DNA from: Bryopsis sp. KO-2023
Lineage: Eukaryota; Chlorophyta; Ulvophyceae; Bryopsidales; Bryopsidaceae
DNA length: 64,000 nt
Assembly: GCA_030272585.1 (NCBI GenBank)
Contig: BSYQ01000008.1
Coordinates: 744,001-808,000 of the forward strand
Direction of reading: 5' to 3'
In this document: positions 2,951 through 60,257 of the stretch, in pieces
Position numbering within the stretch: the stretch's first letter is position 1
How the letters are laid out: every line of letters begins with the position of its first letter
Made by a program: the position numbers and the translations under genes
The notes under the pieces: generated by a model
Database searches by the model: none
Told to the model about the DNA's origin: nothing
Seen by the model: only the letters and a program-made list of their open reading frames with translations

Positions 2951-4264
2951 ATGGCCTCCGGTCGAGAAAACGCCCCTCTTTTCTCGCCAGCATCGGAGAG
3001 AAACAAAGCCCCCATTCTGGAGGTGCTCCGGCAGAACATCGATTTCTCCAAGTTTTCTGGGAAAGGCGCTGAAAAATCGCTCACCCCGCTGTTTTTCCTG
3101 GAAATATCTGGGGGCTCCGGACAACATCTCGCTCATTTTTCGCATGGACTGAGGAGCGAATGCTCCATAATTTGGCAGCCGTCAGATTCCCACACCGATG
3201 GTTTCTCCAGCATGCGACATTACGTCAAGAAATCCCAAGAGATGGTTTTCTCGGAGCGAGGTGGGGGGGGTGACGGTAATGCTTGTGATTCGATTGTTTT
3301 GGAGCCGGTGGTTATCGATGTGACGGAGCAGAGGTGGGTGGTGGAGCCCGAGAATTTGGGTTACTGGGGAAAGAGCCCTCCGAGGTGCATTTTGTATTCG
3401 GAGGATCTGAGGGGGGGGTTGGAGGAAAGGGTGAAAATGGGGCTGGAGGGGAATGAGGGGAAGTTGTTTGATGTGGTGTATAATGCAAACATGGTTCACA
3501 TCAATGCGTTCGATTGTTCGGAGGGCATATTTGCTGGAGTTGGGAAGGTAACGATGCATTTCAGACTTTTTTCATTTTATTTTTTGGAACTTTTTTATGT
3601 TTTACCTTGATGACATTTTCGTTGTTTTGGTTTTTGTTGTTGTTGTTGTTGTTGTTGTTTTTGGGGGGGGAAGGGGTGCCAACTGGTTGGGTGTGTTTTT
3701 TCTTTTCATAATCCGATGGAATAAAAACTGTTCACTTTCTTTTTCGAATTATATTTTTGGCTGGGAGTCTGGTAGTTTGTTCTTTCAAAGATTGATGGAT
3801 TTTTTTGTTGAGTATTTCAGGTTTTTTTTGTTTTTTTTACATTTTTGAGCCACTCCGATATGATGCCAATTTCAATCTAACCCTTTTTTTTAAAAAAGCC
3901 TTTCGTTTTTTCGTGAAATCCCATATGCTCTCAAATGCAGTACAGGATTTCTGAAAGCGTCCCTTCTCAACGGTGATTTTTTCACTCCAGTTTTCCTAAT
4001 TCTGGCATTTCTCGGGTGTTTTTTTGCCAGATTTTACGCAAAGGAGGGCAGTTTTTTATGTACGGCCCGTTCAATGTCAATGGGAAATACACATCTGAAG
4101 GCAATGCAAATTTTGACAGACAATTGAGAGGAACCAATCCTGAATGGGGCATCCGGGATATCGAAACCATGGAGGAGCTTGCCCTGAAAAACGGGTTGGA
4201 AATTTCGAAGAGAGTGCAAATGCCTGCGAACAACCTCATGCTCATTTTCATAAAAAAACTGTAA
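2951..4264 (+). CDS. METTL26-like SAM-dependent methyltransferase (DUF938 family)
   Basis: Two exons, 2951-3547 and 4031-4264, join in phase 0 to give 276 residues. Family hallmarks are visible in order: SERNKAPILEVLRQ near residue 15; a SAM-binding glycine motif LEISGGSGQHLAHF near 50; WQPSD near 75; an N-M-H motif (YNANMVHINAFDCSEG) near 178; then YGPFNVNGKYTSEGNANFD and NPEWGIRDIETMEELA in exon 2. This order matches the METTL26/C16orf13 family, Rossmann methyltransferases of poorly defined substrate. The protein is longer than the usual ~200 residues because of an N-terminal lead and a Gly-rich insertion near residues 103-112. The start is the first ATG of the open frame and precedes the conserved ERNK block by a reasonable distance. 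The 483-base intron is T-rich and contains (TTG)n and T(n)G(n) tracts. Confidence 0.9.
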
Positions 4265-4382
4265 CTTTTTTTTGTCGAGGAGAACATAACAGCACGTGTG
4301 GAAAATTCTCTTCTGTCGATTTCAAACAGCTGATGCAGATGTTGAACGCAGAAAAACAAAGCTAAAAAAAACTGTTTTTGGG

Positions 4383-4495
4383 AAAGAGATAGCGTTTTCT
4401 GATAGGAAATGATAAAAGTTAACAAGTTTGGGTGTGGAAAATAGAGAGAAGAAAAAAAAAACGATTTAGGACTGGAGGCGGGAAATGGAAGACAG
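4383..4495. repeat. Dispersed repeat, copy 1 (second copy at 6782-6900)
   Basis: The sequence AAAGAGATAGCGTTTTCTGA through AACAAGTTTGGGTGTGGAAA, GAGAGAAG and CTGGAGGCGG recurs in the same order about 2.4 kb downstream with small gaps. Copy 1 sits between the methyltransferase gene and the protease remnant, so the repeat marks an old segmental duplication in the protease block. Confidence 0.7.
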
Positions 4496-4525
4496 GATCC
4501 ATCATGGAATCGACCAATAGCTTAC

Positions 4526-4850
4526 TCTTGCTGGCATCTTCCTGCAACCACAGCAGAAAAAACATCAACTCAATCCTGCGGAAATTGATTTTGATTCTAC
4601 ACTGCAGCCTTGTTATATTTTTTTACTTTTTCATGCATCCAGAAAACTTTTTAAAATTGAAAAATTGCCCCGATCATTGTCTATTATCCAAGTTGCAGAA
4701 ACACTCATAAATAGAAAACGGGCTTTGCAAGCCTGAAAGTCATTGTGAATGGTTGGATACGATATCAGTACCTTTTCATCAAGGTCGTGGAGCTCTCTTT
4801 TGATCCAACCCACAACCTCAGCAACAGTCCTGGCATAATTTGCAGCACTA
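4526..4850 (-). pseudogene. Truncated trypsin-like protease remnant (C-terminal end only)
   Basis: Only the 3' part of a protease gene survives. The exon segment 4850-4772 encodes VAEVVGWIKRELHDLDEK and ends at a GTACTGAT donor. The intron that follows is similar to those of the two intact protease genes. The 16-base microexon 4541-4526 (GAAGATGCC...AGA) keeps its acceptor and its GTAAGC donor. Upstream of 4850 the homology stops abruptly: signal peptide, activation site and catalytic triad are all missing. It is therefore a partial duplicate, not a working gene. Confidence 0.8.
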
Positions 4851-5232
4851 TTGGATCCCATTTTTTTTTCTTCCCGACATGCCGGTACGAACTGGTTGGT
4901 TTTTCTCCGAACATCGATTTGGGTTGACTTTTCTAGGCAACGGCCTGTTGTTTTCTTCCTTAATGCTACATCCCTTGCCCTGGCATATTATGTTAGAACA
5001 TTTTGTCGGTTTGGATTTGCAATTTCTGGTTCTCTTTGGATGGACTCATTTTCGAACAGTTGGGCAATTCATGATCAATTGTACTTTGCGACAAGCAAAA
5101 CAACAACCAGTGCGACGGAGGGGGTCACGTGTTATCTGGCGCCCTTTTGGAAGGTGGTTGCACCCAATTCCCGTGCACTCAGAAAGACAACCTCACCTGT
5201 CGACATTGGGGAGGCCGTTTTGCTTGCAAAGC

Positions 5233-5423
5233 ATACCTTTCTCGGCCTTTTGGCTAAGATCAAGTGTAGTTTCTGTTCTTATCAGTTTGATCGCTGATAT
5301 GGGATTCAAGGAATCCCTTCGACGATTAACCTGATTTTTCATGGGGTGCGGGGGCAACGGGTGCTTGCACCCGCCCTGCACGGCATAGTCACGGTTCTCC
5401 ACTACCACTGCGATTGTGCACCC
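5233..5423 (+). ncRNA. U2 spliceosomal snRNA
   Basis: U2 pairs with the intron branch site in the spliceosome. The 5' end ATACCTTTCTCGGCC and the block CTTTTGGCTAAGATCAAGTG match eukaryotic U2, with the plant-style first bases. It continues with TTCTGTTCTTATCAGTTTGATC (stem I/II region), a perfect hairpin GGGATTC-AAG-GAATCCC in the stem IIb position, an Sm-like site CTGATTTTTC, a GGGTGCTTGCACCC hairpin in the stem III position, and a 3' end GATTGTGCACCC. Length is about 191 bases, normal for U2. One departure: the branch-site recognition sequence reads GTAGTT, not the near-universal GTAGTA. Retained stems argue for a functional RNA, but a variant or pseudogene copy cannot be excluded. I see no clear promoter element. 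Confidence 0.93.
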
Positions 5424-5715
5424 GCGATTCAAAACATGGTGCGCTGGCCTCGTTCGGGTTCGATTCCTGAAGCGCTACTACTCTCGAGTTTGTATCGATA
5501 GAATATCACATCCCTCACAATACCACAAATTTCGCTTCCGCCGCCGTAACAAACCTCCACCAGACTCCTTTTCCAGACAAGCGCGTTATTATTTCCGCGT
5601 GTGCTTTTTTTTTCGCGTGGTGCACGAAGCAAGCAGCATGAGAAACATTCGCAGGCCACTTGGCTGGCAACGTTTTAGGAAAAAGCATCTTGAAGAGCAT
5701 GCTCTTTGGGTTCCG

Positions 5716-5885
5716 CGGGTGCGAGAGCACCTCGTTACGCGAGAGCCCGGGCTTGCGAAAACCCCGACCGGTGTTAACAGGTCGACGGGGTTTCGGAAGC
5801 CCGGGATACTAATGCCCGGGGCCACCGTATGGCACCACACTGGCTCACAAGTGTGGTGTCGAAAAATACGCCAGTGGGCCACATT
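5716..5885 (+). ncRNA. Candidate structured RNA: cluster of GC-rich hairpins
   Basis: Unlike the AT-rich surroundings, this stretch folds strongly. (1) GGTGC-GAGA-GCACC at 5718-5731. (2) A long stem with arms 5746-5769 and 5780-5805: CCCGGGCTT pairs with AAGCCCGGG, AAACCCCG with CGGGGTTT, and ACC with GGT, separated by short bulges. (3) An 11-bp hairpin GGCACCACACT / AGTGTGGTGTC at 5831-5860, enclosed by CGTAT (5826-5830) and ATACG (5866-5870). No protein reading is convincing. It lies about 300 bases downstream of U2, on a strand I cannot fix because stems are symmetric. It does not match any snRNA, RNase P, SRP or tRNA consensus I know; it could instead be a foldback element. Confidence 0.4.
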
Positions 5886-6238
5886 CAATTTCCTTCCTTT
5901 TTCCCTTTCTTGTTTTTTCTAACCAATAAAACCAAATCCGAATCTGATTAATAATCAATTAAATCTTGATCCACTGATCTATTTCAATAAAACATTTTTA
6001 GAAAAAAAAAACTTGGGAATACCGCAGAAGAACACAAATTTGTTTGAATTGAAAAAAATGAATCAAAATTAACTATGGGAATGAGAATAGCAAGGGTAAC
6101 GCCAACCACATCGAAAACTTTGGGATCTGGAATCTTTTTCGACTTGAGTATTGGAGTGTTTGTTCGAGCACCTTCAGCATCAATATCATAACTCGTGGTA
6201 CAAGGATATCACACAGGGCTACCCAGCGTTTCAAAAAA

Positions 6239-6289
6239 GCCGACGCCTGTTCGCTCACTTACCTGCAGCTAAGCGAACCAACAGGCGGC
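6239..6289 (+). other. Inverted repeat with a splice-site-like loop
   Basis: Arms 6239-6255 and 6272-6289 pair through CGCCTGTT / AACAGGCG and CGCT / AGCG with a small bulge. The loop contains ACTTACCTG (6257-6265), the exact complement of the consensus 5' splice site and also the U1 5'-end sequence. It may be an RNA hairpin or, read on the minus strand, simply a CAG|GTAAGT donor. No exon is certain. Confidence 0.35.
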
Positions 6290-6369
6290 TTACCCGCAGC
6301 TGCGACCATGAGACAGCCCAGAGTTTTGTCTCGAACCTGCAGTGCTTTCTGGAAAATTGACTTCGTTGC

Positions 6370-6392
6370 GAGCGTGTTGACACGCTTTTTAT
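6370..6392 (+). terminator. Terminator-like hairpin followed by a T run
   Basis: GAGCGTG-TTGA-CACGCT is a 6-bp perfect stem with a four-base loop followed directly by TTTTTATT. In a eukaryote a T run can stop RNA polymerase III, and the small stem resembles the last hairpin of several small RNAs. It could close a transcript covering the hairpin at 6239-6289. This is inference only. Confidence 0.25.
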
Positions 6393-6419
6393 TGGTTTGT
6401 ATGGTCAGTGATCACTGTC

Positions 6420-6720
6420 ATGGCAGGAGGATTTGTTCAAGAGATCGACGATAGTTCGAGTGTGATCGACTCGACACTTGGCACAGTTGGTACTCCTGCA
6501 CTCGACCTCGCCTATGGCATCGCGAATCCCTACACGGTTTCCTTACGGAGGAGATTCGATCTGGGATACTTCTGCGCAGGCGTGTTGGTGGGGAAAAGGC
6601 ACGTTTTGGCGGCGGCATTTTGACGGCGGCGTTTTACCCCCTCGTCAAAGACATCGATGGAATCCAGGTGCAAAAGCGTTCACAAGCTCCAAAACGTTTT
6701 AATTTGATCAAACTGTTCAA
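6420..6720 (+). pseudogene. Decayed S1-protease fragment, N-terminal half
   Basis: Translation from 6420 gives a stretch like the first half of a chymotrypsin-fold protease: NPYTVSLRRRFDLGYFCAGV followed by LVGKRHVLAAAF, parallel to PFMASLR...HFCGGALIRKNVVLTA of the neighbouring genes. The frame then stops. One base shift later it resumes as LTAAFYPLVKDIDGIQVQ. The break coincides with an imperfect 14-base tandem duplication, TTTTGGCGGCGGCA / TTTTGACGGCGGCG, near 6603-6630. The catalytic His position reads Phe and no triad residue is present. It lies opposite to the two intact proteases and is too diverged to be a recent copy of them. Confidence 0.6.
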
Positions 6721-6781
6721 GCTGGTTAGCAGAGAAACCGGCAAAAAATCTCTTTGCCACTCAACAAGTCATTTCTACTCG

Positions 6782-6900
6782 AAAAAGATATAGCTTTTTC
6801 TGACAGAAATTATAGAAGTTTACTCTTTAGCTAACAAGTTTGGGTGTGGAAAACAGAGAGAAGAAGAAAACTCGATTTGCAAGCACTGGAGGCGGAACGC
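6782..6900. repeat. Dispersed repeat, copy 2 (first copy at 4383-4495)
   Basis: Same order of blocks as copy 1: AAAGATATAGCTTTTTCTGA, AACAAGTTTGGGTGTGGAAA, GAGAGAAG, CTGGAGGCGG. A short ACTCTTTAG insertion distinguishes it. It lies just downstream of the decayed S1 fragment. Confidence 0.7.
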
Positions 6901-7607: not shown

Positions 7608-9252
7608 CTAGCATTGAATGCAGCCGTCAGGGAGGTATCTTCCAAATACAAACGAACAGCACTCTGTTCCAAAAAGACACAAACATATAATGCTCCTGTG
7701 AATTATAGGATATCATTTCAGATATAATAAATCAAATTGACTGAAATGTATGGAAGTTAACAAATGTTTTTTAGTATTATTATGATTCCAAAGGCAAAAC
7801 CAAATTGCAATATCAAAAAAAGAACGACATACCAATATACATACACAATATTTATTTATTTTTTTGATCCACTTCTAACTCACTATTGATGTGAAAGAAG
7901 TTCATACCAAAAAGGATTTATGGAAGGATTTATGGCATCGCCTGTGCATCTAGATCAAAAAGCGATTCAAACAGAAATGCTTTGTGGGGAAAATTGTGGA
8001 AATAAGTCGATTTGAATATTAGCCAACACTGGAAAGACAGGGTCCGTCATGGAATCGACCAATAACTCACTCTGGCTGGCATCTTCCTGCAACCACAACA
8101 ATACACCCCCTCAAATCAATTTCTCTGCCAGAAATTGAAAAATCAGTGATTCATCCAGGATCCATGTGCAAAAGCAACTCTTGCACAAAACTCATTTTAG
8201 CAAACCTTAAGGGAGTGAGAGCTATCCTGCTTGATATTATACAGTTAAGGATGCTAACTGAATTTCCCACATGGTCCTATCAGTACCTTTGCATCGAGTT
8301 TGCGGAACTCTCTTTTGATCCAACCCACAACCTCAGCTAAATTTCCAAACACCCCTGGAGAGCCTTCTTGACCGCACCCCCTTCCCCAAGAAACCACCCC
8401 AGCCAACTTTCCGTTCACCAACAACGGTCCCCCCGAATCTTCTTGACACGAGTCTTTTCCTTCTGCCCCAGCGCACACCATATCCTCCGTAATTCCCACA
8501 TCTGCGAAAATCGAGTTGCAGTCGCTGCGAGGCACCAGCGGCACATCGACTTTCAACAGCTGATCTGCTAAGGAAAATCGACGACCTTCCACCGTTGTTC
8601 CGAATCCCAAAACGGTGCCGCCACCGCAAGGATCTCCTTCGCTAAAGCATAAGTCTGTCGAGTGGAGCTTGGCCGGGGTGTTTTTGGACTCCCCATCCAG
8701 CACCAACAAGGCGAAATCGAACCTACTGTAGTCCCCCACCTTGAAATATTGAAAATCTTCGTGGTATATGACCTCGGTGACTTCGAACGATTCAAAACGC
8801 CCCTCGTCGGCCCCCTCCCGGTGAAATCGATTGATATGCACAGCTGGGAAGCCAACTTGCGATATTTTCAAACAGTGGGCGGCCGTCAGAACGACGTTCT
8901 TCCTTATCAGCGTCCCCCCACAAAAATGCTTGCCTCGCCTTCTTTCCGATCTGGTGCTTTGAGGGTATCTCAGGGATGTCATGAAGGGGAATTCACCAGG
9001 CTCGACAGGTTTCCCACCAACGACTTTAGGTATGAACAAAGACGATATAACGGCCGAGTCATTGGATTCCGGTTCTCGTTGGCTTTCTTCCCCGTTCTCT
9101 TGTTGGAGCATGCGCCGCCCGTGGCGAGCTGTCGCGCTTTGCACGGGATGATCACTGCCCAATCCTTCGCGCACTACTGCCACCTCATCGGATGCGGTCA
9201 GCGCTGGCGGCGGAAGGGCCAGAAGCAACAGCAGTGGTCCAAGCAACCTCAT
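7608..9252 (-). CDS. Secreted trypsin-like serine protease (S1), copy A
   Basis: The main exon 9252-8287 encodes 322 residues. It opens with a signal peptide (MRLLGPLLLLLALPPPALTA), then a ~55-residue propeptide and activation site K76|VVGG. The triad is His126 (LTAAHC), Asp179 (FDFALLVL) and Ser273 (DSGGP). Asp267 sits in the S1-pocket position, predicting cleavage after Lys/Arg. The residue before the DSGGP motif is Glu271 instead of the usual Gly193, part of the oxyanion hole. The exon ends at LDAK with a GTACTG donor. Two short downstream exons fit in phase and are conserved in copy B: a 16-base microexon 8086-8071 and 7663-7608, adding a Cys-rich tail (KCCSFVFGRYLPDGCIQC). Another reading frame of the last exon is possible. 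The start Met is chosen because it begins the signal peptide; upstream in-frame residues are poorly conserved. Probably a digestive or extracellular peptidase. Confidence 0.9.
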
Positions 9253-10897: not shown

Positions 10898-12539
10898 CTA
10901 GCATTGTTTGCAGCCGTCAGGGAGGTATCTTCCAAATATATATGAACAGCACTCTGCATCAGAATAAAAGAAAAAAATGTGTGAGAATAGTTCCCTTGAA
11001 TTAAGAAAAAATAGGCTATTTATAGATAGCAAACATCAGGTAAAGTATCGTTGAGTACAACAAATGCTTTTTTTTAATCCGGGGAAGAAAATGCAGCTTT
11101 TCAAAGAAAAAATGGCACATTCACAGTATGATATATTTTTTTCATCCACTGCTGACTCACTGTTCCTCGAAAAGAATACAACCCTAGGATAGATTCAGGA
11201 TTTATGTATCGTTTTGCATAGATGAATCAAAAACGGTTGATGACCATACAAAATAAAAAAAAAATGTGGATTTTAAACTCAAAAACTTGAGGGAATGCTG
11301 TCATGGTATCGACCAATGGCTTACTCTTGCTGGCAGCTTCCTGCAACCACAGCAGCAAAAACATCAAATCAATCCTGTGGGAATTTAATTTGATTCTGCA
11401 CAGCAGCTTTGTATTTCTCAGATTTTTCATGGATTCCAGAAAACCTTATTGTCAGGAGAACAAAAATTTGTCAATTATCCAAGTCGCAGAAACACTCTTA
11501 AATACTGGCTTTGCAAACCTCAAAAAAGGAAGTGAAAGTCATTGCATATGGTTGGATATGATCAAGGTCCTATCAGTACCTTTTCATCAAGGTTGCGGAG
11601 CTCTCTTTTGATCCAACCCGCAACCTCAGCAACGTTTCCAAACACCCCTGGAGAGCCTTTTTGACCGCACCCCCTTCCCCAAGAAACCACCCCAGCCACC
11701 TCCCCATTAACCAACAATGGCCCCCCCGAATCCTTTTGACACGAGTCTTTCCCTTCTGCCCCAGCGCACACCATGTCCTCCGTAATTTCCACATTTTCGT
11801 ATTTCGAGTTGCACTCGCTGCGAGGTACCAGCGGCACATCGACTTTCATAAGCTTATCTGCTAAGGAAAATCGACGACCTTCCACCGTCGTTCCGTACCC
11901 CATAACGGTGCCGCCACCGCAAGGATTTCCTTCGCTGAAGCAGAAATCTTTCGTGTGGAGCTTCGCTGGGGTTTTTTTAGACTCCCCGTCCAGCACCAAC
12001 AAGGCGAAATCGAACCTACTGTAGTCCCCCACCTTGAAATATTGAAAATCTTCGTGGTATTTGACCTCGGTGACTTCGAACGATTCAAAACGCCCCTTAT
12101 CGTCCCCCTGTCGGTAAAATCGACCGATATGCACTTCTGGGAGCTTGCCTCCCGATTGCAACAAACAATGCCCAGCCGTCAGAACGACGTTCTTCCGTAT
12201 CAGCGCCCCCCCACAAAAATGCTTGCCTCGCCTTCTTGTAGACCTGGTCTTTCGAGAGAACCTCAGGGATGCCATGAAGGGATAGTCACCAGGCCTGACT
12301 GATCTCCCACCAATGATTTTAGCAACAAAGAGGGCAAAGGTCGCCTGAACGATTCCCAATTTTCGTTGGCTTTCGTCCCCGTTCTCTTGTTGGAGCATGC
12401 GCCGCCCGTGGTGAGCTGTCGAACTTTGCATGGCGCGATCGATGCCCAATCCTTCGAGCGCCGTCGCCACCTCATCGGCTGCAGTCAGCGCTGGCGGCGG
12501 AAGCGCCAGGAGCAACAGCATTGGTCCGAGCAACCTCAT
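10898..12539 (-). CDS. Secreted trypsin-like serine protease (S1), copy B
   Basis: Tandem paralogue of the copy A gene. The main exon 12539-11580 encodes 320 residues: signal peptide MRLLGPMLLLLALPPPALTA, propeptide, and activation site K74|IIGG. The triad is His124 (in TAGHC, Gly replacing the usual Ala), Asp177 and Ser271, with Asp265 at the specificity position. The residue at chymotrypsin position 193 is Lys269 rather than Gly; copy A has Glu there. Downstream, the 16-base microexon 11340-11325 and the exon 10953-10898 join in phase and give the tail KCCSYIFGRYLPDGCKQC, stopping at exactly the same place as copy A. The conservation of both splice sites and the stop supports this 3' structure. 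The protein is predicted to be secreted with Lys/Arg specificity; substrates are unknown. Confidence 0.9.
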
Positions 12540-13230: not shown

Positions 13231-16200
13231 TCAAACAGACTCTGCCAACTCGTTGGGAGAGGTGCTTTCCTCTTGTTTCCAAGGCAAGCTTTCCGGCGGC
13301 CAAAACGCCAGCCGAATGGATCCACTCCCAGCCAAAGCCCCCCTGAGAATAAAGTTCGCTGCTCGATAAACATCCAACCTCCCCCCACGGGTCGTGTACC
13401 AATTCTTCTTCGAGGCAAACGTCTCGCAGAGCTCATAAGCAGTCCATTCGATATCATTGTCGAGAGGGGAGGGCCCAGCTTCGGAGCTCCTCGATAACGA
13501 CTTGGAGGTCGCTGAGTCTTTCGAGATGTTCAGTATGTTGTGAAGGCGTGGCCAAATTCTCTCGCCCAGGTACCGAACCACGCAGTAGGGATCTCGGCAT
13601 CGTGCGATCGGGAAACTTCCAAATAACACCTGAAAACACGGACAACGCGCAAAAACTCACCCCTGGAAAGACGTCCAAAAATTGTGGGTACGTGGTGAGG
13701 TTGTGGCGACCTCAAACGGCTATGTCGCACTCAAACGGAGGCAAGATTGAGTCCAGCAGCGAAACCAGAGCGTCCAAAACGTGTCCCAGCGTTCATAATC
13801 TGATATCCACCTGCAAGGGCATCACGACGTCCAGCCTGGGGAACACAAGCCCAGGGCAATCGCACAACATGAGCTTCGGAGTTAGGTAGTAAGTCTGGTA
13901 ATGCTTGGTTCGGCCTGGATGTGCCGAAACTGCCATTTTCTTCATCCCCAGGAGCGCGTTCATGGTCGTGGACTTTCCTACGTTCGGTTCTCCAATAACG
14001 CAAACGACCACCGGCCTCTGCTGGTCGTCGTGTCGAGTGGATCCCGAACGAGGAGCGAGAGAGTCAAACTGGGCATTTTCGTTGTCTTGGTCGATGGGCT
14101 TCCCGTCCGCACCACCACCACGTGAATTGCCCTCATCTGTGGACATCGAAAAAACACGAGCGTTACATGCCAGTAACGCATAATATCCCACGCACGATCG
14201 ATTTTCACAGATTTTTATGAAAGATGTGGTGGTGATCAATGCAGTGGGTAAAAAAACAAAAAAAAACAAAAAAAACATACCGTTGTCAGGGTTCGAACTC
14301 TCCATGGCGGCTCTTGCCCGTCGTTTTTCACGCCTGGCCTCTTTTCGTTTGGCCCTTTTGCCCTTGCTGTCCCAATCCTCATCAAATTTGCCTTCTTTCC
14401 TGACCTGAACTCGCATCCACCACACTCAAATAAAACAAAGGAGCAAAAACCATCGTTTTGTTGGCGATCCAATGCCAGGCATATATATGCAAGAGAAACA
14501 CACAAGACAGACAGGCTTCCAACTCACCTCACATTTGCCTTCAAAAAAGGTATTGGCCCTCTCCCGAAACTCCAGTATTTTTTCCACATCCATTCCCACG
14601 ACCTCCTGGACTTTCGAAGGCTCTATCCCACCAATTTCGACATTCAAAATTGACCCCAACAGCGCCCTCCTAGTGAATTGCTCGCCCCCTTTGGAAGCAT
14701 GCACCGGGACGGTCGAGACGCCAGGGTAGAGTTTTTCAAAGTACTGGCTCCAAGCTTCTATGGCTGACGTAGGGACAAGGTCGCATTTGTTCAAAACGAT
14801 TATGACTTTGAGTCCCATTGCTTCAGTCACGTGAGTGTACAGAGCATGGCTGAAATGGAGAAGAGGGTTCCTGTTAAAATACAATCAAAACATAACAAAT
14901 TCAAGAGAAACTTCAGAAAAAAAAATCCAAAGCGAAAGCTTTCACTGAGAAAAAGGTGCAAGAAAATAGTAAGTGGTGTGGAAAATGTCAGGATGGTGTG
15001 CATGAACAGCTCAATGATTGAGAATTGAAACAGGCCATGGGGACCTGCTCAATTGTAAAAAGATTCCTAAGATTCCACAAAAAAAATAGGGGCGGACCAA
15101 ACCTTGTGCAGGATTGTTTCTGATATTCCCACAAAATACAGACTAGGACGTCAAAGAAATCAAATTTGCCAATCTGCTGGACTGTGATCAAGGGTCCCCT
15201 GTGGCTGGGGAAAAAAATATCCACAGGATTCAATCACGGGTCAAAGTAAAGCCCTATTGCAAAAAAACAAAAAAACTGATAAGAATATATATGTATATAT
15301 TGGATAGAATGGTGTATTGGGAATCGGATAATCGCATTCGTGTGCAGAATTTTACCTCTCACCTAGCATCCACGATGACCATGCAAATATCAGCCCTTTC
15401 AGTGACCCTCCACAGCTGACGCCAGTATTCCAGATTCCTTTCGTAACTACTCAGCCGCTGAGAGTCAAATCTGGAAGGAAAGAAAAAACTAACCGCATCA
15501 GCAATACATACCTCAAGCAAGGGACAGCGAGAATCCTTTCGTTTCGTTTACTGAAAAAAGACACAAACAAGAAGGAAAGAAAGAAAGAAATAGGGGCTGA
15601 CCTGGAGTTCATATCATCTTGCCATTGAGCGAAAGAGTCTTTTTCTAATGCATGGAGCTCGTCCGTGGTGGTTGCCATGCCTTGCCAATGGGGACGTTTT
15701 GGAAATGTTAAGCCAAGGCCCTCTTCGGACCAGCCCACATCTTCCAGTCGACACCTGAAACATTTTTTTCAAACCATAACATGTCAGATAACAAATTCAA
15801 CAAAGTACTGTCTCAAAAAAAAAAAATACATGAAATAATAAAACGTAAAATAAAAAAGCATTCCCACACAAGACAAAAAAAAACTCTCATCCCAAATTCC
15901 CAGCAAACTAAATTTTCCGCATGTGTTGGGGACACCCTTGAAAAGCAAATTTTTTTTATTGTTGAACAAAGGACTCATGGTTCTCAAATATCTAGGGTTG
16001 TTTAACGTTTCCTTGAAAAATTATAAATAACTAAAAAAAATACAACAAAAAATTACCCACGACTAACCTGGGCATATAAAACTCGTCATCTTGTGGAGGC
16101 AGGGGAACCTCTTCTTCTTCTTCCCCAGATTCTTCTCCACTGCTCGATGTGACTGATGATGACTCATAGGGTGACTCATCCTGGCCATCTTTTCTTCCAT

Positions 16201-17990
16201 CCAGAATTTGTCCGGAAGTAAAATAAGTCACTTTTTCCAGTCTAACCAAATCCGAAACGTACTGGAACGGGGTTTCCAGCTCTTGCCTTGTTTTCGATTT
16301 AGCCTTGCCTTTGCTTTGGACTTGAGAAAACCTCTCAGGGGCTGCACTACCTATTTTTCAACAATAGAAAAAATATTTTTTTTTTAATTATAAAGAAATC
16401 ATTTTTTTTTCGTGGAATTGGACACCGAAGATGTTCCAATAACCCACAAATCGACCAGCCCTAACCAAATTATCCGCCTTCAAATATTTCAAAGCCCTGT
16501 AAACGGAAAAACACCCCAAACCCACAAAAAAAACAAAAAAAAGTGACCTTTTCCACTTTCTCACTCTTTTCTCACCGATGCCTTGAACTCCCGACAAATC
16601 CTCCACCTTGATTTCTTCGTCGGAGTCCAGTTCGTTTTGCCTCCGCGTCCTGTCACGTTCACGCTTCCATTTCAGATACTCTTTTTTGTTTTTCGCACCC
16701 AGCGGTTTTTTCTTCTGCCTGGCATCTTGCTTAGTATTGCTGTTGGGCCCTGGAGCTGGCTGCCGATTCCAATTGGAATCGTCTTTTTTCTTGGATGCAT
16801 AAGCAACGTAGCTTTTTATGTGTGGAGCTTTTGCAACATCCTCCACCGATTCTCCTGACAGTCCGTGCAAAAAAACAAACAAACAATTGAAACAGAAACC
16901 GCAAGCTGTGCAGGGGACAAACCCCCAACCCCCCCTTTTTTTTTGGCAAGTATTTGGAAAAAAAAAGAAAGGAGAGATTGAAAATTCAAAAACAAATCTG
17001 CGTGAAGGGAAAGAAAAGAAAAATGGAAATGGCTTTGAGCGAGGGATTAATTTGGAGGGGAAGTTTGGGACAGCCGGCTGATTTTGTTGGGGGGGGAAGG
17101 AGAAAGAAACAAAACAGAGGGAGGTGGAAATCAGCTCCTATCAGTGAATGAAATAGAATTTTCAGTTCTTTGATTTTTAATTCTTTAAAGCTTCACAGAA
17201 GCACGCGATTATAAGAAGAAGAAAAGTCATTTCACTTGCAGATTTAAAAAAAAAGAGGGAAACTGCCCCCCCAACCAGAATGATAAACCAAAAAGAAAAA
17301 AGAAAAAAACACACAGCATAAACGCTTTTCACCAAAAATATGAAATGACAGACAGGACACCTTTTTTCGTCACAGCTGAAAAAACCACCCCTTCCTTCTT
17401 GAGCAACTTCAACACATCCAATTGGCTTCTGCGAGTAGCATCGTGTGCGACGGAATTCCCTGAATGATCTTTTGCTTTCAAATTGCACCGAGCAGCAATC
17501 AGGAGGCGAAGAATCTACAGCCAGCATTTGCACATACCCGCACATTCTATGTCAGATCCCTGGGCATGCTAACTCAAAAAAGAAACCTCACATGCAAAAG
17601 CACCTTGAATTAAAACCTTTAATTTTCAAGCTGATCTCATTGGCGGCCCCCCTTGCCCCCAGAAGCAAAAGCAAAAAATATCAAAATTTCACATCTCCAT
17701 GTGCTGCCCTAACCTCTGCGGGATCAATGTCAATTGCAGATTCACTTTTCACAGGGGGAGAAAATGGGAGCACAGTCGCAAGGTGTTTTTTTTTTTTTTT
17801 TCTGTCGATCATATTGGACCTTGGTGTGGCCGCCAGCAGCCGCAACATGGGCCAGTGATTTCCCCGCGCCGTTCCTGACGTTTACGTCCAATCCAGCCTC
17901 CAGAGCGATTTTAACAGCGTCGAATTCCCCCTTGCTGGCGCTAGTGAACAGATGTGCCTCGTCGTATTGGAAATCGCTTCCTGTTTCCAT
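13231..17990 (-). CDS. Ankyrin-repeat / GNL1-type circularly permuted GTPase fusion
   Basis: Eleven exons (17990-17820, 17514-17361, 16854-16548, 16496-16426, 16350-16068, 15754-15602, 15470-15363, 14870-14528, 14404-14281, 14136-13811, 13629-13231) join with matching phase at every junction to give 812 residues. Residues 1-130 are ankyrin repeats (LFTSASKGEFDAVKIALEAG; NLKAKDHSGNSVAHDATRRS). Then come a Lys/Arg-rich linker, a helix-hairpin-helix-like VQGIGEKRVRKWKRALKYL, and a Glu/Ser-rich acidic stretch. The GTPase part shows the permuted order of GNL1/YlqF proteins: SYERNLEYWRQLWRV, VDARNPLLHFSHALY, NKCD (G4), HASKG (G5), GEPNVGKST (G1), then DCPGLVFP (G3), and the family C-terminus DVYRAANFILRGAL. 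Known relatives act in ribosome assembly; ankyrin repeats on them are not usual. The start Met follows no upstream exon I can find and lies 140 bases from the divergent mTERF gene. Confidence 0.88.
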
Positions 17991-18130: not shown

Positions 18131-19513
18131 TTGGTGGTTGCTTTTTCGAAATTGCGATTTGGACGCTGTGTCGCCTTTGGAGGAAAAGACGTCAAAATGC
18201 TGGGTAGGTTGTGTCGACGCAGGGAGGTGTGGGGAGGTATGGGATCAGGAAGGTGGTTTTCGCTGGCGGCGGACGTCATCCCAGGTGAGACGTCGACGTC
18301 GGGCTCGTTCCCGAGCAGCGGCGAGGTCGAAAGCCTGAAAAAGCGTCTGAAAATTTCCGAGCATGAAGTGGGGTCCATACATGCAAGAATGGGGGAGGAA
18401 ATCAAGCTGGAAAAATCGCAGTTGAGGGATATGCTGGGGAGCATGGAAAAGAGGGGCAATGTCGGGGAAAATATGGACCTGCTGAAAGAGTTTGGTTTCA
18501 CGAGCGGGGATCAGAAATCCTTGCTGATGAGAAGCCCGGTAGTTTTCACAGAGGGGAGGGAAAAGCTGGAGAAGTTTTGGGGGCATTTCGTGAAAGAGTT
18601 TAACTTCGACGATAAGCAGCTGAAATATATGGTGCTGTTTCAGCCCAGAGTACTGGAGTTTGACCTGGAGCGGGAGGTGATCCCTTCTTTGAACGCATTT
18701 CTGGACATGGGTTTTTCCAAAGATCAAACCAAGAAAATCGTGCTGAACTACCCCCACGGCTTGGAAACATTCGGCGAAACGTTGGAGCCGATGCTGGAGG
18801 TGTTTCGGGGAGGCGGCTTCTCGAAGAACGATTTTGTTGAGTTGGTTTCTGAGGTGCCGAACGTTGTAAAGGGAACTGTGGAGGATAAGAAGATGCTGAT
18901 CAAAGAATTAATGGCCAATGGATTGAGCCAGGAGGAAACCCGGGTGCTCCTGACAGAGTGTGAAAGCCTGAGTACGGAATCCTACGAAGACAACTTGCTG
19001 CCGAAATTCCAATTTCTGGAAGACATGGGTTTATCTAAATTGATAATCATCCACAAAATCATCAAGAAAGCGGGGCTTTCGTTTTCCCGGGTGCGTCTGG
19101 AAACCATGAAAGAATCGTTTCGGTGTTTGATTTCGCTGGGGATTAGCCAAGACATGTACAAAGAAATGGTGTGTCGATCGCCGTTCATCCTCGGCCAAGG
19201 TCCGCAAGGGCTGAGGGAGAAAATCGATTTTACCACCGAGGTTATGAAAAGGAAAGTGGATGAAATCGCGCGTTGGTCGCCGTATTTGACTTATTCTTTG
19301 GAGAGGAGGATAATGTACAGGGCAGCCATCAAATTGTCGACAGGGGAGGATTTGACCGGACTCAGTCTCAGGAACTTCATGCTCCAATCCCATGTGAAAT
19401 TCTGCAGAAGATACAAGAAGGACCACATCGATCGGCTCACCGAATGGTGGCAAGGTCTGACCAAAAAAGAAAAATGGGAGGCGGTTGAAAAGCAGAAATT
19501 CATGGAAGGATAG
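18131..19513 (+). CDS. mTERF family organelle transcription/translation factor
   Basis: A single uninterrupted exon of 460 residues. From about residue 115 onward there are helical mTERF repeats of the form 'LGFS..Q....V...P.VL': LLKEFGFTSGDQKSLLMRSP, LDMGFSKDQTKKIVLNYP, FRGGGFSKNDFVELVSEVP, MANGLSQEETRVLL, LISLGISQDMYKEMVCRSP. The C-terminus has the family's WSPYLTYSLERRIMYR signature. mTERF proteins bind nucleic acid in mitochondria or plastids. The Arg-rich N-terminus is consistent with organelle import; an internal Met at 18197 (MLGRLCRRREVW) could be the true start. The gene is head to head with the ankyrin-GTPase gene and, unlike it, has no introns. Confidence 0.93.
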   Translation: MVVAFSKLRFGRCVAFGGKDVKMLGRLCRRREVWGGMGSGRWFSLAADVIPGETSTSGSFPSSGEVESLKKRLKISEHEVGSIHARMGEEIKLEKSQLRDMLGSMEKRGNVGENMDLLKEFGFTSGDQKSLLMRSPVVFTEGREKLEKFWGHFVKEFNFDDKQLKYMVLFQPRVLEFDLEREVIPSLNAFLDMGFSKDQTKKIVLNYPHGLETFGETLEPMLEVFRGGGFSKNDFVELVSEVPNVVKGTVEDKKMLIKELMANGLSQEETRVLLTECESLSTESYEDNLLPKFQFLEDMGLSKLIIIHKIIKKAGLSFSRVRLETMKESFRCLISLGISQDMYKEMVCRSPFILGQGPQGLREKIDFTTEVMKRKVDEIARWSPYLTYSLERRIMYRAAIKLSTGEDLTGLSLRNFMLQSHVKFCRRYKKDHIDRLTEWWQGLTKKEKWEAVEKQKFMEG

Positions 19514-46071: not shown

Positions 46072-48159
46072 ATGGTGGTGGATGAAGTATCTGTTACGCA
46101 TGTGGTGGTGCTCTTGTTGGTGGCTGCTGTAGTTATCGAATGGATCTGGGGGTTGTGGCGGCGGACGCGGTATGACTTGCACAAGATTCCAGGCCCGACA
46201 TCTCTTCCACTGTTCGGTCATGTTCACCTGTTGCCCCTTCTGCTGCCGGTTTGGGGCAAGCTCCGTATTACGGCAAAGATGCACGAATGGGCTCTGAAAT
46301 ACGGAAAATTGTACAAGGTGAGTAGCTCGCTTTTTGCTCTCCCCAAAAAACATATTCACTGAGCACAGACAAGAGATGCTTCCATGACTTCCATAAGACA
46401 GGATTTTCATTAATGAATCGAAAGAAGGAAATGGCACAGTTCTGCAATCCACAGATGCTTTTTTGTTTTCAGCATGTGGACTCAGGATTGCATTTCATTA
46501 CTGGGCATTGATCAAATCTCAACTCTTGCCATTGATAGTGGGATGGATTCTACGTTCGCAGTTGAATATGTTGGTGGATGATGTGGTGGTAATTCACGAC
46601 CCGAAGTTTATCGAGAAGCACGTTCTTGCCGGAGGCAAGACGGACATCCCTAAGGTCTCCACCTACGATAGCTTTAATAAGGTATTCCACTGATCACAAT
46701 TGATTAATATTCTGCATGCAATGATTAAAAACCAAAAACCAGTTGATCTCATTGATTCAAGAGGAGAGTATTTTAGAGTGTATATACACTTTTGTATTAA
46801 TCTTCGCCTTTGCATCAAGAAGGTCAAAAACCAAAAATCGAAGTCCAAAAAAACCGAAAGACAAAAAGCTTTAATAGGAGATTTCAACCCAGGGCAGTGA
46901 TCTGGACATTTTGGTTGGCACCGTGTGTGTAGATGATGAGTCCTTATAACATGCATAGTCTGTTCACCTCGCCTAAAGCGGACGCAAAATATAAGTCTTT
47001 TCGGAAGACCATGGCCTGCGCTTTCAGTTCCGAAGCCCTGAAAAGAGGTTTTCCTCAGCTCCTGGAAAAAAGTAAACAAGTGGGGTCGAAAATAGCCACC
47101 CTGGCAAAAGATGGAACACCTTTCGACATGCAAGACCTCGGCGTGAGGTTCTCTTTGGATTGTATTGGGCATTTCGCGTATGGTTTGAATTTCAACTCGG
47201 TCGGTAAGACAACCCACCCTCTGTTGGAAGCGCTGGAATTCACCTGCGAAGATTCCTTTGCTGATCATCTCAATCCATTCAGGGAGCCATTCAAAAAAAT
47301 CATGTCCTTCACACCATCCGGCAAAAAAATCAAGGGGATGTACAACATACTGTATCACGAATATGACAAAATCATGCAAGCGATTGATTTTGAGGATGCC
47401 CCTGCTGGAGAGGACGACCGGTCGATCAGAGCTCAATTAATGCGGCTGAGAAATCCGCTCGAAAACGACCGAAAGGCGTCTTGGGAAGAGATCTATGCCG
47501 AGATGGCAACCTTCATTTTTGCAGGGACAGACACGACTGGGCATCAGGTTGCCTGGGCATTGATGTGCTTAGCCACACACCCAGAGGTTCAAGAGCGTGT
47601 GTTTGAAGAGTTGGTGGAAAATGGGTTGGCAGGGAAGGGATGCAGGGATCCAGAGTTTGCTGATCTTAATAGGTTGAGTTATTTGAACAATGTGGTGAAA
47701 GAGAGCTTGCGGAGAATTCCAGTTGCTCCCAGCTGCGGACCCAGAAGATTGGAGGAAGACATGGATGTGCTGGGGTATCGGGTGCCCAAGGGGACGATTT
47801 TGGTTTGCCAAGCACACACTCTCAACACTTGCCCCTGGTCTTGGGAAAACGGTGAGGATTTTGACCCAGAAAGATGGGCAACGAAAGGCGAGCGAGATTT
47901 CCCTGAGGAGGTCAAGCTGAACAACCCATCGCAGAAAACATGGACGTTTGGTTTTGGGGTGAGGAATTGTGTGGGGCAGAGGTTGGCGATGCTGGAGCTT
48001 CAGCTGCTTTTGGCTGTGCTGTTGGCGAAGTTTAGGTTCACGCTGGAGTCCAGCATGGGGGGGTGGGATGGGGCCCTGAAGCGAGGTTTCAATTCGTTGG
48101 TTTTTACCTGTGAAGGAGGCATGTGGATGAAAGCCACTCCAAGATTTGAGAAAACGTAA
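46072..48159 (+). CDS. Cytochrome P450 monooxygenase
   Basis: Three exons (46072-46317, 46562-46681, 46933-48159) join in phase 0 to 530 residues. An N-terminal membrane anchor (VVVLLLVAAVVIEWIWGLW) is followed by the proline hinge IPGPTSLPLFGHV. P450 signatures: I-helix oxygen-binding FAGTDTTGHQ, ExxR in KESLRRIP, PERF-like DPERWATKG, and heme loop FGFGVRNCVGQRLAMLE with the axial Cys. These ER-type enzymes oxidise small hydrophobic molecules using a CPR-type reductase. The clade is not clear. In exon 2 an earlier acceptor would add residues without homology; 46562 gives the best fit. Start is the Met before the anchor; an earlier in-frame Met is at 46003. Confidence 0.93.
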
Positions 48160-54215: not shown

Positions 54216-56471
54216 TTACGCAATGGTGGTGGTCCTACGTAGCAGTCTCCTTGAAGGTTGGCGCTGTCGATTGGCAGCGACAGTGAATGATTTTGCCGTT
54301 TTCATCACAGGCAGACTGTCCACCCCGCTCAGCCAATTCTCGTACGACACTCGGTCCAAATACGGTTCCAGCGTCAGCTTCTCCAATCGATCCTCCACAT
54401 GGTAAGGATCGATTAAAGTGTTCTGACATTGCACCAGCAAATCCCTCGTGATCATCCCTTTCAGCGGCCCGAAATTCGACACAACCGGAATGTATTCCAG
54501 CCCCGTCGAATTTTTCAGTCGGTAGATGGATGTCAGCGACATGTCGGGGGGGATCACCACCGGAGGAAGTTTAGTGATCCCAGAAAGGTCGATCAAATCC
54601 TCCCCCTCTTCGTTTATCACGGGCGGGTGGCTCCCCAGCAGCCGAGACGCGTTCTCTCCGAGCAACCTGGTTTTCTCATCGTCAATCTCAGCCCTCTCCG
54701 ATACCCCACCATTCTCAGCATCGTCCACACTCGCCAGCAACTCCCTCAAATCCTGAGCATACACCAACCCTCGGAATGCGATCACCGTCCAGCCGGTTCG
54801 CTCCACCACTGGGAAAACCTCCGTTTCGTCCAGCTCCAGCGCCCTGTCGATCACCTCCCTCCGTTCCCTGAGATCCAGAGTGGTCATGGTGCGTGTCATG
54901 ACGTCTTTTGCTTCGAAACCTTTCCTCTTTATGGTGGATTCTGGGTGGCCGCCGACGTAAGGTAACCCAGAGAGCACACACAAGTGATTGAGAATGTTCT
55001 GATTGAATCGATCCCCAACCCCCTTTGCTATGATGACCACCAGCATCAGGAGAGGAAGCTGCTCCTCCGTGTTGGTCAATTCCGTCAAAATCACCACAAA
55101 ACTCACGGCAAATCTGTACAGCCCGCCCAGCACAGCACCGGAGCCCAGGAAAGCATACAACCCAGGGTCCAATTTCACACCGAACGCACGATTCACGGCA
55201 TCGGCATAGACCCTCCCCAAGGCCCCTCCAGTGATGACTGACGGGGTGAACAGACCAGCCGGGATCGCCATTCCGTAGGTAACCACCGACATCGAGAAGT
55301 AGAAAACGCAAAAAATGACTAGCGACACCCCGTGGAATGCATGGGGTCCCTCTGTGAAGAGAGACTTCACAACGAAACCTTGCGGATTGTTCAACAAGAC
55401 TGCCAGGTCGTTGTAAGTCCCATTGTGACAACCGTAGAATCCAAAAGCTTGGAGCTCCTCCACCCCCGGTGCAGCCAGGCAATGTTCCTCTCCCTGGCAA
55501 TGATCGGTTTTCTCCAGGCAAGTTCCCAGAAAGGGCAGGGAAATCCTGAGCCCTGTGGTCAACAGTGTCACTGAAGCAGCTTCCAGCAACCTCAATGGGA
55601 TGTTCAATTTGAACCTCCACCTTTTGCTTCCCAGATACATGTTAAGGGTGGTGAAAAGCGACCCCACCACCCCACCGATCGCCCCCAGCAGAGCTACCCA
55701 ATGCACTTCCTGGATCGGCGTCGGGAAATCCACCTCATTCCGGAAAAATAACAAGGAACCGTAGGATAGCGTGCCTTTATCCACGCTGAGCGCCGAGCCC
55801 CCACGCACGACTGCCGCGACGACCGCGCACGTGAATAGGGTTCTCCACGTGAGTTCGGGTCGCCATCGCGAAGCCATCTCGTACGCCAGCAGCATTCCCC
55901 CCACCGGAGCTTTGAAACCGGCGGCCAATCCCGCGGCGGTACCGCACGCCACCAAATCTCGAGCGTGTTGCTCGTACGTGAACGGGTCCTGTTCGCGCCT
56001 TTGGCCCAAACTTCGAAACACCCGCGAACCACCCAGAAACGTCGCGACAATCGCGCCGATATGCAACAACGGTCCCTCCTTGCCAATCACGAGACCGCCA
56101 GACACCACCAACACGCTCGCGACGAGTTTCACCACCGCCACCTTAAGCGTCAAAAATCCCGGCATCTCGACACCGTTCAGATAGGCGTACATGTTGGGCT
56201 GCCCAGAGCCCGCCGCTATCGGCGCGATAAACAACACCAATGCGGAGCCAAGGAGAACCGTCGCGACATTGTAGAGGCATGGGATCAAAATATCATACAC
56301 GCGCACCATCGTCGTGTCCACCAGTCGGAAGACGAACAGCGAGTAAACCTCCTTGAACAGAAACCCGACGATGAAGTTTGCCGAGACCGCCACGCTGCCG
56401 ACGACCAGCCCAATCACCAGGCAAAACACCCAGAAGAGGATGGTGTAACATCGCGGGATGTGCAATCCCAT
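54216..56471 (-). CDS. CLC-type chloride channel / H+ exchanger with CBS domains
   Basis: A single exon of 751 residues with about ten membrane helices followed by two cytosolic CBS domains (DVMTRTMTTLDL; LPPVVIPPDMSLTSIYRL to IPVVSNFGPLKGMITRDLL). Selectivity motifs: GSGQPNMYAYLNG where GSGIP is usual; GKEGPLLHIGA with the gating Glu; KAPVGGMLLAYEM, where the Glu aligns with the proton Glu of exchangers; and MAIPAGLFTPSVITGGALGR. Retention of both Glu suggests a 2Cl-/H+ exchanger of endomembranes rather than a plain channel; this is inference. The N-terminus is short compared with plant and animal CLCs, starting almost at helix B. It has no introns. Confidence 0.94.
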   Translation of the reverse strand: MGLHIPRCYTILFWVFCLVIGLVVGSVAVSANFIVGFLFKEVYSLFVFRLVDTTMVRVYDILIPCLYNVATVLLGSALVLFIAPIAAGSGQPNMYAYLNGVEMPGFLTLKVAVVKLVASVLVVSGGLVIGKEGPLLHIGAIVATFLGGSRVFRSLGQRREQDPFTYEQHARDLVACGTAAGLAAGFKAPVGGMLLAYEMASRWRPELTWRTLFTCAVVAAVVRGGSALSVDKGTLSYGSLLFFRNEVDFPTPIQEVHWVALLGAIGGVVGSLFTTLNMYLGSKRWRFKLNIPLRLLEAASVTLLTTGLRISLPFLGTCLEKTDHCQGEEHCLAAPGVEELQAFGFYGCHNGTYNDLAVLLNNPQGFVVKSLFTEGPHAFHGVSLVIFCVFYFSMSVVTYGMAIPAGLFTPSVITGGALGRVYADAVNRAFGVKLDPGLYAFLGSGAVLGGLYRFAVSFVVILTELTNTEEQLPLLMLVVIIAKGVGDRFNQNILNHLCVLSGLPYVGGHPESTIKRKGFEAKDVMTRTMTTLDLRERREVIDRALELDETEVFPVVERTGWTVIAFRGLVYAQDLRELLASVDDAENGGVSERAEIDDEKTRLLGENASRLLGSHPPVINEEGEDLIDLSGITKLPPVVIPPDMSLTSIYRLKNSTGLEYIPVVSNFGPLKGMITRDLLVQCQNTLIDPYHVEDRLEKLTLEPYLDRVSYENWLSGVDSLPVMKTAKSFTVAANRQRQPSRRLLRRTTTIA

Positions 56472-57388: not shown

Positions 57389-59787
57389 TCATGACCAAGC
57401 TTCCACGAAATACCTCCCCTTCAGTTCCATTGTACGCAACAGCTTCTTTGCATTCTCGGCCGAAACGTCTTCCCCAACCAATATTTCCTGGAATGCTTCC
57501 ATGACATTGGAGGGCATTTTTTTGGCCGATCCTGCCACATACACCGAAGCCCCTTTTTCCAACACCCATTCCCTGACCACACCTTGCATCTCTCTAAGTT
57601 TATCAGTGACGTACACCTTCTTTGGCTGATCTCTAGAAAACGCAGCCACCAACCCATGGTTCTTATCCAAAACCCCAGATTCCTGCAATGCCTCCCACTG
57701 GGTTCGATAATAGAAATCCCCCTGTTCGTTTCGACAACCGAAAAAGAGCAGCGACGGGGCTGGAGGGTTGGCAGGGTTCGACTTCAGGATTTGCTGCCGC
57801 TCCTCCAGAAAAGATCGAAACGGAGCGACCCCGGTCCCAGGTCCAATCAAAATCATGGGGGTGGAAGCTTCCTTCGGCAGTGACAGAGCCCCACTCTCCA
57901 CCCAAACAGGGATTCGGTCAGCACCCCCTGGCGAAATGTTCGCCAGCCAGGAGGTACACAGCCCGAACCTCTGTCGTTTGAACGGGGTCCGCCATTTCAC
58001 AATGGCCACAGTCACATGGGCTTCCCCAATATGGGCAGCAGGGGAAGACGAAATCGAGAACTGCCGAGGTTGTTTAATCGGGCAAGCTTGGAGGAGCCAC
58101 TCCAAAGGGGGGGTGGCGCTCGGGAAATCTTGCAACACCTCCAGCACTGTCCTACCCTCCCTTTGATTGTAAACGTGCAGATCGTCCCGCCCCTCCGTGG
58201 ATGCAAAATAAGCCAACCGGTCGATTTCCACCTCCGTTTGAGCGAACGCGTGCAACACTTTGAAAAAGAATCGACGAGGGGATGCTCCACAGACATCCAA
58301 TACCCCAGCCACCAGTTCTCGAATTCGCATGGTAGCTTTGCTCCTTGTCGACACATCCACTGGACCCTGATTGGCCGAAACCTCAATCCAATCTTCCCCG
58401 TTCAACCCCATCCGCTTCAGAAACTCCTCCACAGCATTTTCTGGAGTTTGTGGAAATATGGTCAAGACGTCACCTGGGCGGTAATTCAGGCCGGAGCCGT
58501 GAATGTCCAATTCGATGTGGCGGACATCCTGAAAATGCTCCGCGGTTGTGATTCTTTCATTTTTTAGCACTTTTGCCATGTGCGGTTTCCAACGGCCAGC
58601 AACACCCTCTTCTGAAGTCCAGGTTGAGTCAAACGTCGATCCGCTGGCTTCCCCCATGATCTAGACCCATAGCAACTGACATGTCCGAAGTGGAATTTCC
58701 TCAACCCCACACTCCAAGATTCGATTCTACCCAACTGAGAAATTCACGAGTGCATCCGATTACTGTTTTTGTTTGTTTTTTGCCATTGACTGATATTTTG
58801 AGAAGCATTACAAAAGAAAAAAGCTGGAAACAGTAACAGGGAAAAGGTGGGTATTCTATACAAAAAAAAAGCCTTCCTGAGCGCTGGATACCATAGAACA
58901 GCGTTAAAAACACCTTGCATTTTGATTCACGGGGAAATCCTCCAAATGTGCTTATTTAATAAATTATTTATTAATTTCTTGTTTGTTTACATTCAGTGAT
59001 TCGACATTGCTTCGTTAGTGCTATGATTAGTACTTTGCTACAGAAAATGAAAACGGATGTCTAGGGCAGTATCTCCAGTATGGTATTCCAACAATTGAAG
59101 TTTTGATCTTTTTTTAAATCTATTGAATCAGCTTGAGTCACTGATTCTGCCACTCACCTGTCTGAAAGATGCCGCGGCCTCCACAGCTTTTTCTAAATTT
59201 GTCCGGCCTATCTGGGCACCCCCACCCCCTCTGGATGCATCCCCACTTTCCCCATCCAGAAATCGCACACAGTATTTTGGCAAGCCAATGCCATCCTCCT
59301 TGAAAGCCTTTTCCACCCCAAATCGCAGTTCCAAAGCTTTCCACAACTTTTCCGACCAGGGATCGAATCCTGCCTCGTACCCGCTCGGATGCTGGTCATC
59401 CCCTAACCCCCTTTCGATCAGCATGTCACACCCCAGCCCTGCAAGCCTGTTCGCCAGTTTCTTCCCTGTGACATTGTATTTCTGATATCCCGAATCCCCC
59501 AACCCAAACACAGCAGTGCACACCCCCTTCAAGGAATCAGCCGGCAGAGTTTTCCTCAGCAAAAACTTCCAAAATGTCCTCATGTTCTTGGGAACCTCCC
59601 CTTGCCCCGTGGTCGCAGCCAGGAATATCACCAGCCTCTCCTCCGGGATGTTTTGAACGGGGAAAGCATCCATCGACATCACTCTGGGGGTGAGTCCCCT
59701 CCGTCGAGCTTCCCTCCCGATCGTTTCTGCGACATCCTCCGCATTCCCCGTTTCCGAGCCGAACAAGATCAACATAGGTAGAGACAT
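57389..59787 (-). CDS. NADPH-dependent diflavin oxidoreductase (NDOR1/Tah18-type)
   Basis: Two exons (59787-59158, 58660-57389) join in phase 0 to 633 residues. Flavodoxin domain: LILFGSETGNAEDVAETIGR, TTGQGEVPKNMRTFWKFL, VFGLGDSGYQKYN. FAD domain: YRPGDVLTIFPQTPENAV, RQFSISSSP. NADPH domain: LIGPGTGVAPFRSFLEER, FGCRNEQGDFYYRTQWE, VYVAGSAKKMP, and the terminal YFVEAWS whose aromatic stacks on FAD. Size and lack of a membrane anchor match NDOR1/Tah18, which passes electrons to anamorsin/Dre2 in cytosolic Fe-S assembly, rather than P450 reductase. An upstream in-frame Met at 59886 would add 33 residues without family similarity; the start chosen precedes LPMLILFGS directly. Confidence 0.94.
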
Positions 59788-60257
59788 CGTCCAGTGGCCA
59801 CGATCCGCGTTTGCCTGAGAAAGCCATGCTTGAGCTGGGGGGAGGGGAGGAATGATGTCACAAGATTCGTACGGGTGGTGAAACATCTCCCTGTGTTTTA
59901 CTGCTCATAGCTTCTGAGAAGTGTTTCTCAGAATCGAGTTCGGCACTTGCTAGCCGGCCCCCGAAAGGAGAAGGAGATGTGTAAAAATAACGTGGCCGTT
60001 GGAGGTAATCCCATGAGAAACCTTCAACCACATACTGGTCGGACCTGAGGTCGATAGTTGCCAGTGATACGAAACTCGTTGGATAGGCAAGTGCACTTTC
60101 CTTGCTTCGTTGCAGATTCCGCTCGCTAGGGTTCTGGCTGGCCTGGCGCGCAGCTTCGAAACGTTGCCTGGCCGAAGAGGCCCTTCGGTCGGTCCCTCTC
60201 TACAAAGATCGCAACTTAGAAGAGTGGAAAGAGACTGCAAGTGAAAGGGGGAAAGGC
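59788..60257. promoter_or_regulatory. Head-to-head intergenic region (diflavin reductase / potassium channel)
   Basis: About 470 bases separate the two divergent start codons. The first exons probably have untranslated leaders here; the open frame from 60102 in frame with the channel may be part of its 5' leader or an N-terminal extension. No clear TATA box. Confidence 0.35.

Follow-up and report, generated by a model that had tools for sequence, protein, structure and literature searches.

Does a single gene of the green alga Bryopsis sp. KO-2023 join ankyrin repeats to a permuted GTPase, which GTPase would that be, and what might the repeats do for it? These questions are raised by positions 17990-13231, minus strand, of the window, by which we mean the whole stretch of 64,000 nucleotides that was analysed. 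A preliminary description of this DNA had proposed that an eleven-exon chain encodes here both the repeats and a complete GTPase of the GNL1 type, GNL1 being among the least understood of the eukaryotic permuted GTPases. The reading that we prefer, to which we give a probability of roughly three in four on the strength of the predicted protein, is that one gene encodes a GNL1 orthologue whose N-terminal ankyrin module would give this ribosome-assembly GTPase an arm for binding a partner.

Results

We rebuilt the exon chain independently and arrived at the same eleven exons on the minus strand, with a reading frame that stays open for about 800 residues, a product without an internal stop and GT-AG borders at all of the introns used. 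Most variants that include exon 4 give a product of 793 aa to 812 aa, the variant used most being 803 aa long. The predicted protein opens with the ankyrin repeats; a basic segment and a weak helix-hairpin-helix-like stretch come next, then an acidic stretch, and last the permuted GTPase, which is complete. Exon 1 (17820..17990) supplies the start codon at 17990 and the first ankyrin repeats (residues 1-57), with Ank_4 and Ank_2 both above cut-off, and exon 2 (17361..17514; residues 58-108) continues the repeats. Exon 3 (16548..16854; residues 109-210) contains the end of the ankyrin homology, a basic GNL1-like motif (residues 156-177; 16649..16714, coordinates derived from the exon table) and the beginning of the helix-hairpin-helix-like stretch. 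The end of exon 4 (16444..16496) is ambiguous, with 16456 or 16444 used here and others possible, and the exon could even be skipped; the start of exon 5 (16068..16341) is likewise ambiguous, with 16341 used here, and this exon carries linker sequence and the acidic stretch.

The GTPase lies in exons 6-11. It begins in exon 6 (15602..15754), which aligns to the human LSG1 chain of 6lsr, and continues in exon 7 (15363..15470). The G4 motif NKCD (residue 434; 14791-14780) is in exon 8 (14528..14870), exon 9 (14281..14404) forms the insert that separates the two GTPase halves, and exon 10 (13811..14136) carries G1, GEPNVGKS (residue 611; 13993-13970), and G3, DCPG (residue 655; 13861-13850), so that G4 precedes G1 and G3 in the permuted order. 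Exon 11 (13231..13629) holds the C-terminal region, which aligns with the C-terminal part of the presumed human GNL1 sequence, and the stop codon. The sequence taken as human GNL1 in our comparisons is presumably that of the human protein. Its length, 607 residues, agrees with the available part of PMC6065441.

Since Ank_4 (43.1 bits, cut-off 22.7), Ank_2 (40.3 bits, cut-off 27.3) and MMR_HSR1 (58.5 bits in exon 10, cut-off 21.9) all exceed their Pfam cut-offs, the ankyrin and GTPase domains are well above chance, and with the open frame these scores uphold the proposed chain. Three of the shown alignments to solved ankyrin proteins start ahead of the exon 1/2 junction and continue without a gap to residues 116-117, in exon 3, thereby extending just some 7-9 residues into that exon; others are broken by a gap near residues 104-111. 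The donors of introns 1-3 (at 17819, 17360 and 16547), if the model is right, read GTCCAATA, GTGTCCTG and GTCACTTT and differ from the usual GTRAGT. Polyadenylation-like motifs on the minus strand from 18100 to 13000 were uninformative (one TGTAA, one AATAAA).

The preliminary description had pointed out that all ten junctions keep phase, so that a single transcript could encode the whole. The chain is indeed open, and that part stands; as an argument for one gene, phase carries little weight. The whole frame stays open in 25 of 99 exon 4/5 junction combinations, exon 4 skipping included, in 13 of 55 combinations at the exon 2/3 junction and in 3 of 12 at the exon 1/2 junction. With so many alternative combinations also keeping frame, phase does not fix the junctions, and we rejected it as proof that the exons form a single gene. 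A codon score, trained on the window's other long frames together with the LSG1 exons, preferred the model frame in 11/11 exons and was positive in 9/11; it was negative in exons 2 (-1.8) and 6 (-0.8) and only 0.2 in frame in exon 5. For exon 4, with its end at 16456, the score was 3.6 in frame compared with -19.8 and -16.9 in the other frames, and 29 of 30 intron-frame scores fell below zero, a contrast much of which is owed to stop-codon penalties.

The linker also received attention. The acidic stretch that had been claimed is real, spanning residues 270-316 with a pI of 4.05. A helix-hairpin-helix is at most suggested by the predicted sequence: HHH_5 scored 18.9 and 16.5 bits in full-length proteins (Pfam cut-off 27) and rose above the cut-off in one of ten isolated linker versions, at 29.3 bits with two stretches counted. 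We rejected HHH_5 as decisive support for the exon 3-4-5 junctions, because the 29.3 bits of that fragment fell to 16.5 in the full protein.

That the locus is one gene, as originally proposed, is best argued from exon 3, in which the ankyrin homology ends, which also contains the GNL1-like motif and which itself lacks a start codon. Residues 156-177 are identical to the N-terminus of the presumed human GNL1 sequence at 12 of 22 positions, with a score of 59 that none of 1000 shuffles reached in either of two tests. The shuffles averaged 34.2 and 32.0, and four further segments of the same protein scored 38 at best in this comparison. Read upstream to the stop at 17140-17138, the exon 3 frame holds no in-frame methionine, and in the 803-residue variant the first methionine after M1 is M318. 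The same is seen across all 25 frame-keeping variants, which have no methionine between M1 and residue 282, the second one being that at the end of exon 5 or lying beyond residue 280. Because exon 3 is without a methionine and the next is M318, the only start codon for the GNL1-like motif is that of the ankyrin part, barring an unseen first exon.

One might instead suppose two adjacent genes on the same strand, the first encoding an ankyrin/helix-hairpin-helix protein (exons 1-3 or 4) and the second a GTPase that starts at M318 or in an unseen first exon. M318 does precede the entire GTPase domain, and a frame that can be kept at exon 4/5 in so many ways would often be kept by chance. However, a split would strand the GNL1-like N-terminal motif in the wrong gene, the ankyrin homology ends in the very exon that carries this motif, and in exons 3, 4 and 5 it is the model frame that the codon score ranks best. 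We consider two genes very unlikely, and from the sequence we expect with high confidence that all of the exons are spliced into one mRNA.

As to the identity of the GTPase, its best matches among solved structures are to LSG1 chains (164 bits), and none of the 44 matches listed bears the name GNL1; among the 21 NCBIfam matches listed, no model scores above its own cut-off. LSG1 acts in late maturation of the large ribosomal subunit, and the algal protein resembles it (human 6lsr, yeast 6n8n) in the permuted GTPase and in the same flanking WRQLWRV-type region. On these matches the gene could be a diverged second LSG1 and not GNL1, and a published survey of GNL1 would allow for that. The available part of this 2017 survey of 46 eukaryotic proteomes describes GNL1 as mostly metazoan and infers that fungi and Viridiplantae have lost it (PMC5224878). 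The available part of PMC1262696 places GNL1 in coelomates and notes a possible plant equivalent.

The genome, however, already contains a canonical LSG1, carried by a different contig (L017, G000:C4:6868500-6878000, at about 3200-6800 of that locus), which reaches 341 bits in comparison with human LSG1, against 164 bits for the ankyrin-GTPase protein. Compared with the presumed human GNL1 sequence, the ankyrin-GTPase protein scores 594 and the alga's own LSG1 384. Both conserved halves of the ankyrin-GTPase protein likewise favour the presumed human GNL1 sequence (280 and 345; identities 53/130 and 75/162) over the alga's own LSG1 (210 and 208; identities 48/123 and 61/162). With LSG1 accounted for elsewhere in the genome, the ankyrin-GTPase gene fits the GNL1 slot. 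These pairwise scores and the separate LSG1 bear out the earlier assignment to the GNL1 type, and we think it highly probable, judging by sequence likeness, that the gene is a GNL1 orthologue; a second LSG1 is improbable. No ankyrin-like match is listed adjoining the alga's own LSG1 gene.

The likeness to the presumed human GNL1 sequence comprises the permuted G motifs, a matching C-terminal region and the basic N-terminal motif. In contrast to the human protein, the algal one has an ankyrin module and a long linker before the basic motif. An acid-rich C-terminus of the human kind is not known to be a family-defining feature of GNL1. Human GNL1 has such a C-terminus according to the available part of PMC6065441, whereas algal exon 11 is without it and the acidic stretch of the algal protein sits before the GTPase.

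When the ankyrin-GTPase protein was compared with its own genome (91,088,769 bases, 28 contigs), 56 of 234 candidates were scored and 81 matches were obtained, of which 10 were the same locus, 2 were pieces of LSG1 and 69 were ankyrin-type, with 23-39% identity. As 56 of the 234 candidates were scored, the gene is single-copy at that sensitivity only. At 23-39% identity to the other genomic ankyrin matches, the ankyrin module is no fresh duplicate of a listed gene.

Discussion

Ankyrin modules bind proteins. In the model that we favour, the permuted GTPase would serve as a GTP-controlled switch in ribosome assembly and, in the way reported for human GNL1, travel between the cytosol and the nucleolus. 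The basic motif would provide nucleolar targeting or contact with RNA, and the ankyrin module, as an integral arm, would bind a protein partner and hold it beside the GTPase. Human GNL1 shuttles between compartments, has a localisation signal rich in arginine and lysine, and is a binding partner of RPS20, as stated in the accessible portion of PMC6065441. We lean towards a partner-binding function for the ankyrin arm, with less assurance than we have for the gene structure or the GNL1 assignment. If the arm does bind a partner, it offers a handle on the partners of GNL1, and whatever it binds becomes a candidate GNL1 target.

The ankyrin extension might also be a recent, lineage-specific passenger without an important function. 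The genome is well stocked with ankyrin genes, as the 69 ankyrin-type matches among 81 attest. A good ankyrin consensus has nevertheless been kept, and no close copy of the module is found in the genome, where identities are 23-39%. We regard a passenger as unlikely, while giving it more weight than any other alternative to the partner-binding arm.

A more specific proposal can be drawn from yeast, where Yar1 escorts Rps3 and Acl1 escorts Rpl1, in each case by ankyrin repeats that bind the ribosomal protein (PMC4740875 and PMC13034042, each available in part). The likeness is one of analogy only, an ankyrin module in a ribosome-assembly setting, and it would make the algal module a built-in ribosomal-protein chaperone that unites delivery and GTP licensing in one polypeptide; that human GNL1 binds a ribosomal protein, RPS20, is in keeping with it (PMC6065441, from the same accessible portion). 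In contrast, Yar1 and Acl1 are stand-alone proteins with four repeats, whereas the algal module has about three and a cap and is fused to a GTPase. Its charge also differs: the eight known dedicated ribosomal-protein chaperones are acidic, with pI 3.87-4.83 in the available text of PMC13034042, whereas the ankyrin part is basic, at pI 9.02 (8.65 for the whole protein). Because of this charge we disfavour the chaperone version, which seems to us a doubtful one, well behind the passenger. It is slightly more doubtful still that ANK-GNL1 represents a form of GNL1 conserved among green algae, whose arm binds a fixed client, for example a ribosomal protein, and so couples delivery to GTP-controlled assembly.

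In the titles and abstract openings of the literature searched there was no description of ankyrin repeats fused to a GNL1 or MMR_HSR1 GTPase, and none appears in the available parts of PMC2588589 and PMC12258605. As predicted from sequence, the joining of ankyrin repeats and GNL1 is well supported, and for this known GTPase it is a new domain combination. The same architecture may have been annotated elsewhere, or green algae may commonly have it. A search with the 495 aa of the GTPase part, ankyrin repeats excluded, in viral and prokaryotic contigs returned 3 and 67 pattern-matching stretches, respectively, and no relative; being viral or prokaryotic, these collections say nothing on other algae. 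The reported distribution of GNL1, in which it is lost from Viridiplantae, would need correction if a green alga has the gene.

Neighbouring and other genes

Upstream of the ankyrin-GNL1 gene and divergent from it is an mTERF gene on the plus strand (18197-19513; 114.9 bits). As the two start codons are 207 bases apart, a single promoter region may serve both genes. Two genes for similar trypsin-type proteases stand in tandem on the minus strand, downstream of the GNL1 gene (8254-9252 and 11562-12527; Pfam Trypsin 151.3 and 161.6 bits). Further long open frames lie at 46933-48159, 54216-56471, 57389-58657 and 59128-59886 and to the eye resemble a cytochrome P450, a chloride channel and parts of a diflavin reductase. 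Elsewhere in the genome, a light-harvesting protein assembled by joining two frames (L018) is identical at 213 of 214 positions, counted by eye, to 8hlv chain A, Bry-Lhcb1 (479.1 bits), a chain labelled as siphonaxanthin chlorophyll a/b binding light-harvesting complex II. With 'Bry' standing for Bryopsis, this near-identity indicates a Bryopsis-like green alga as host, and the light-harvesting proteins led us to abandon a stramenopile as an alternative. The chain 9jzr_d is an equally good match, and the top score for this protein, 489.5 bits to 9vfj_2, is a sum over two domains of 264.1 and 231.4 bits.
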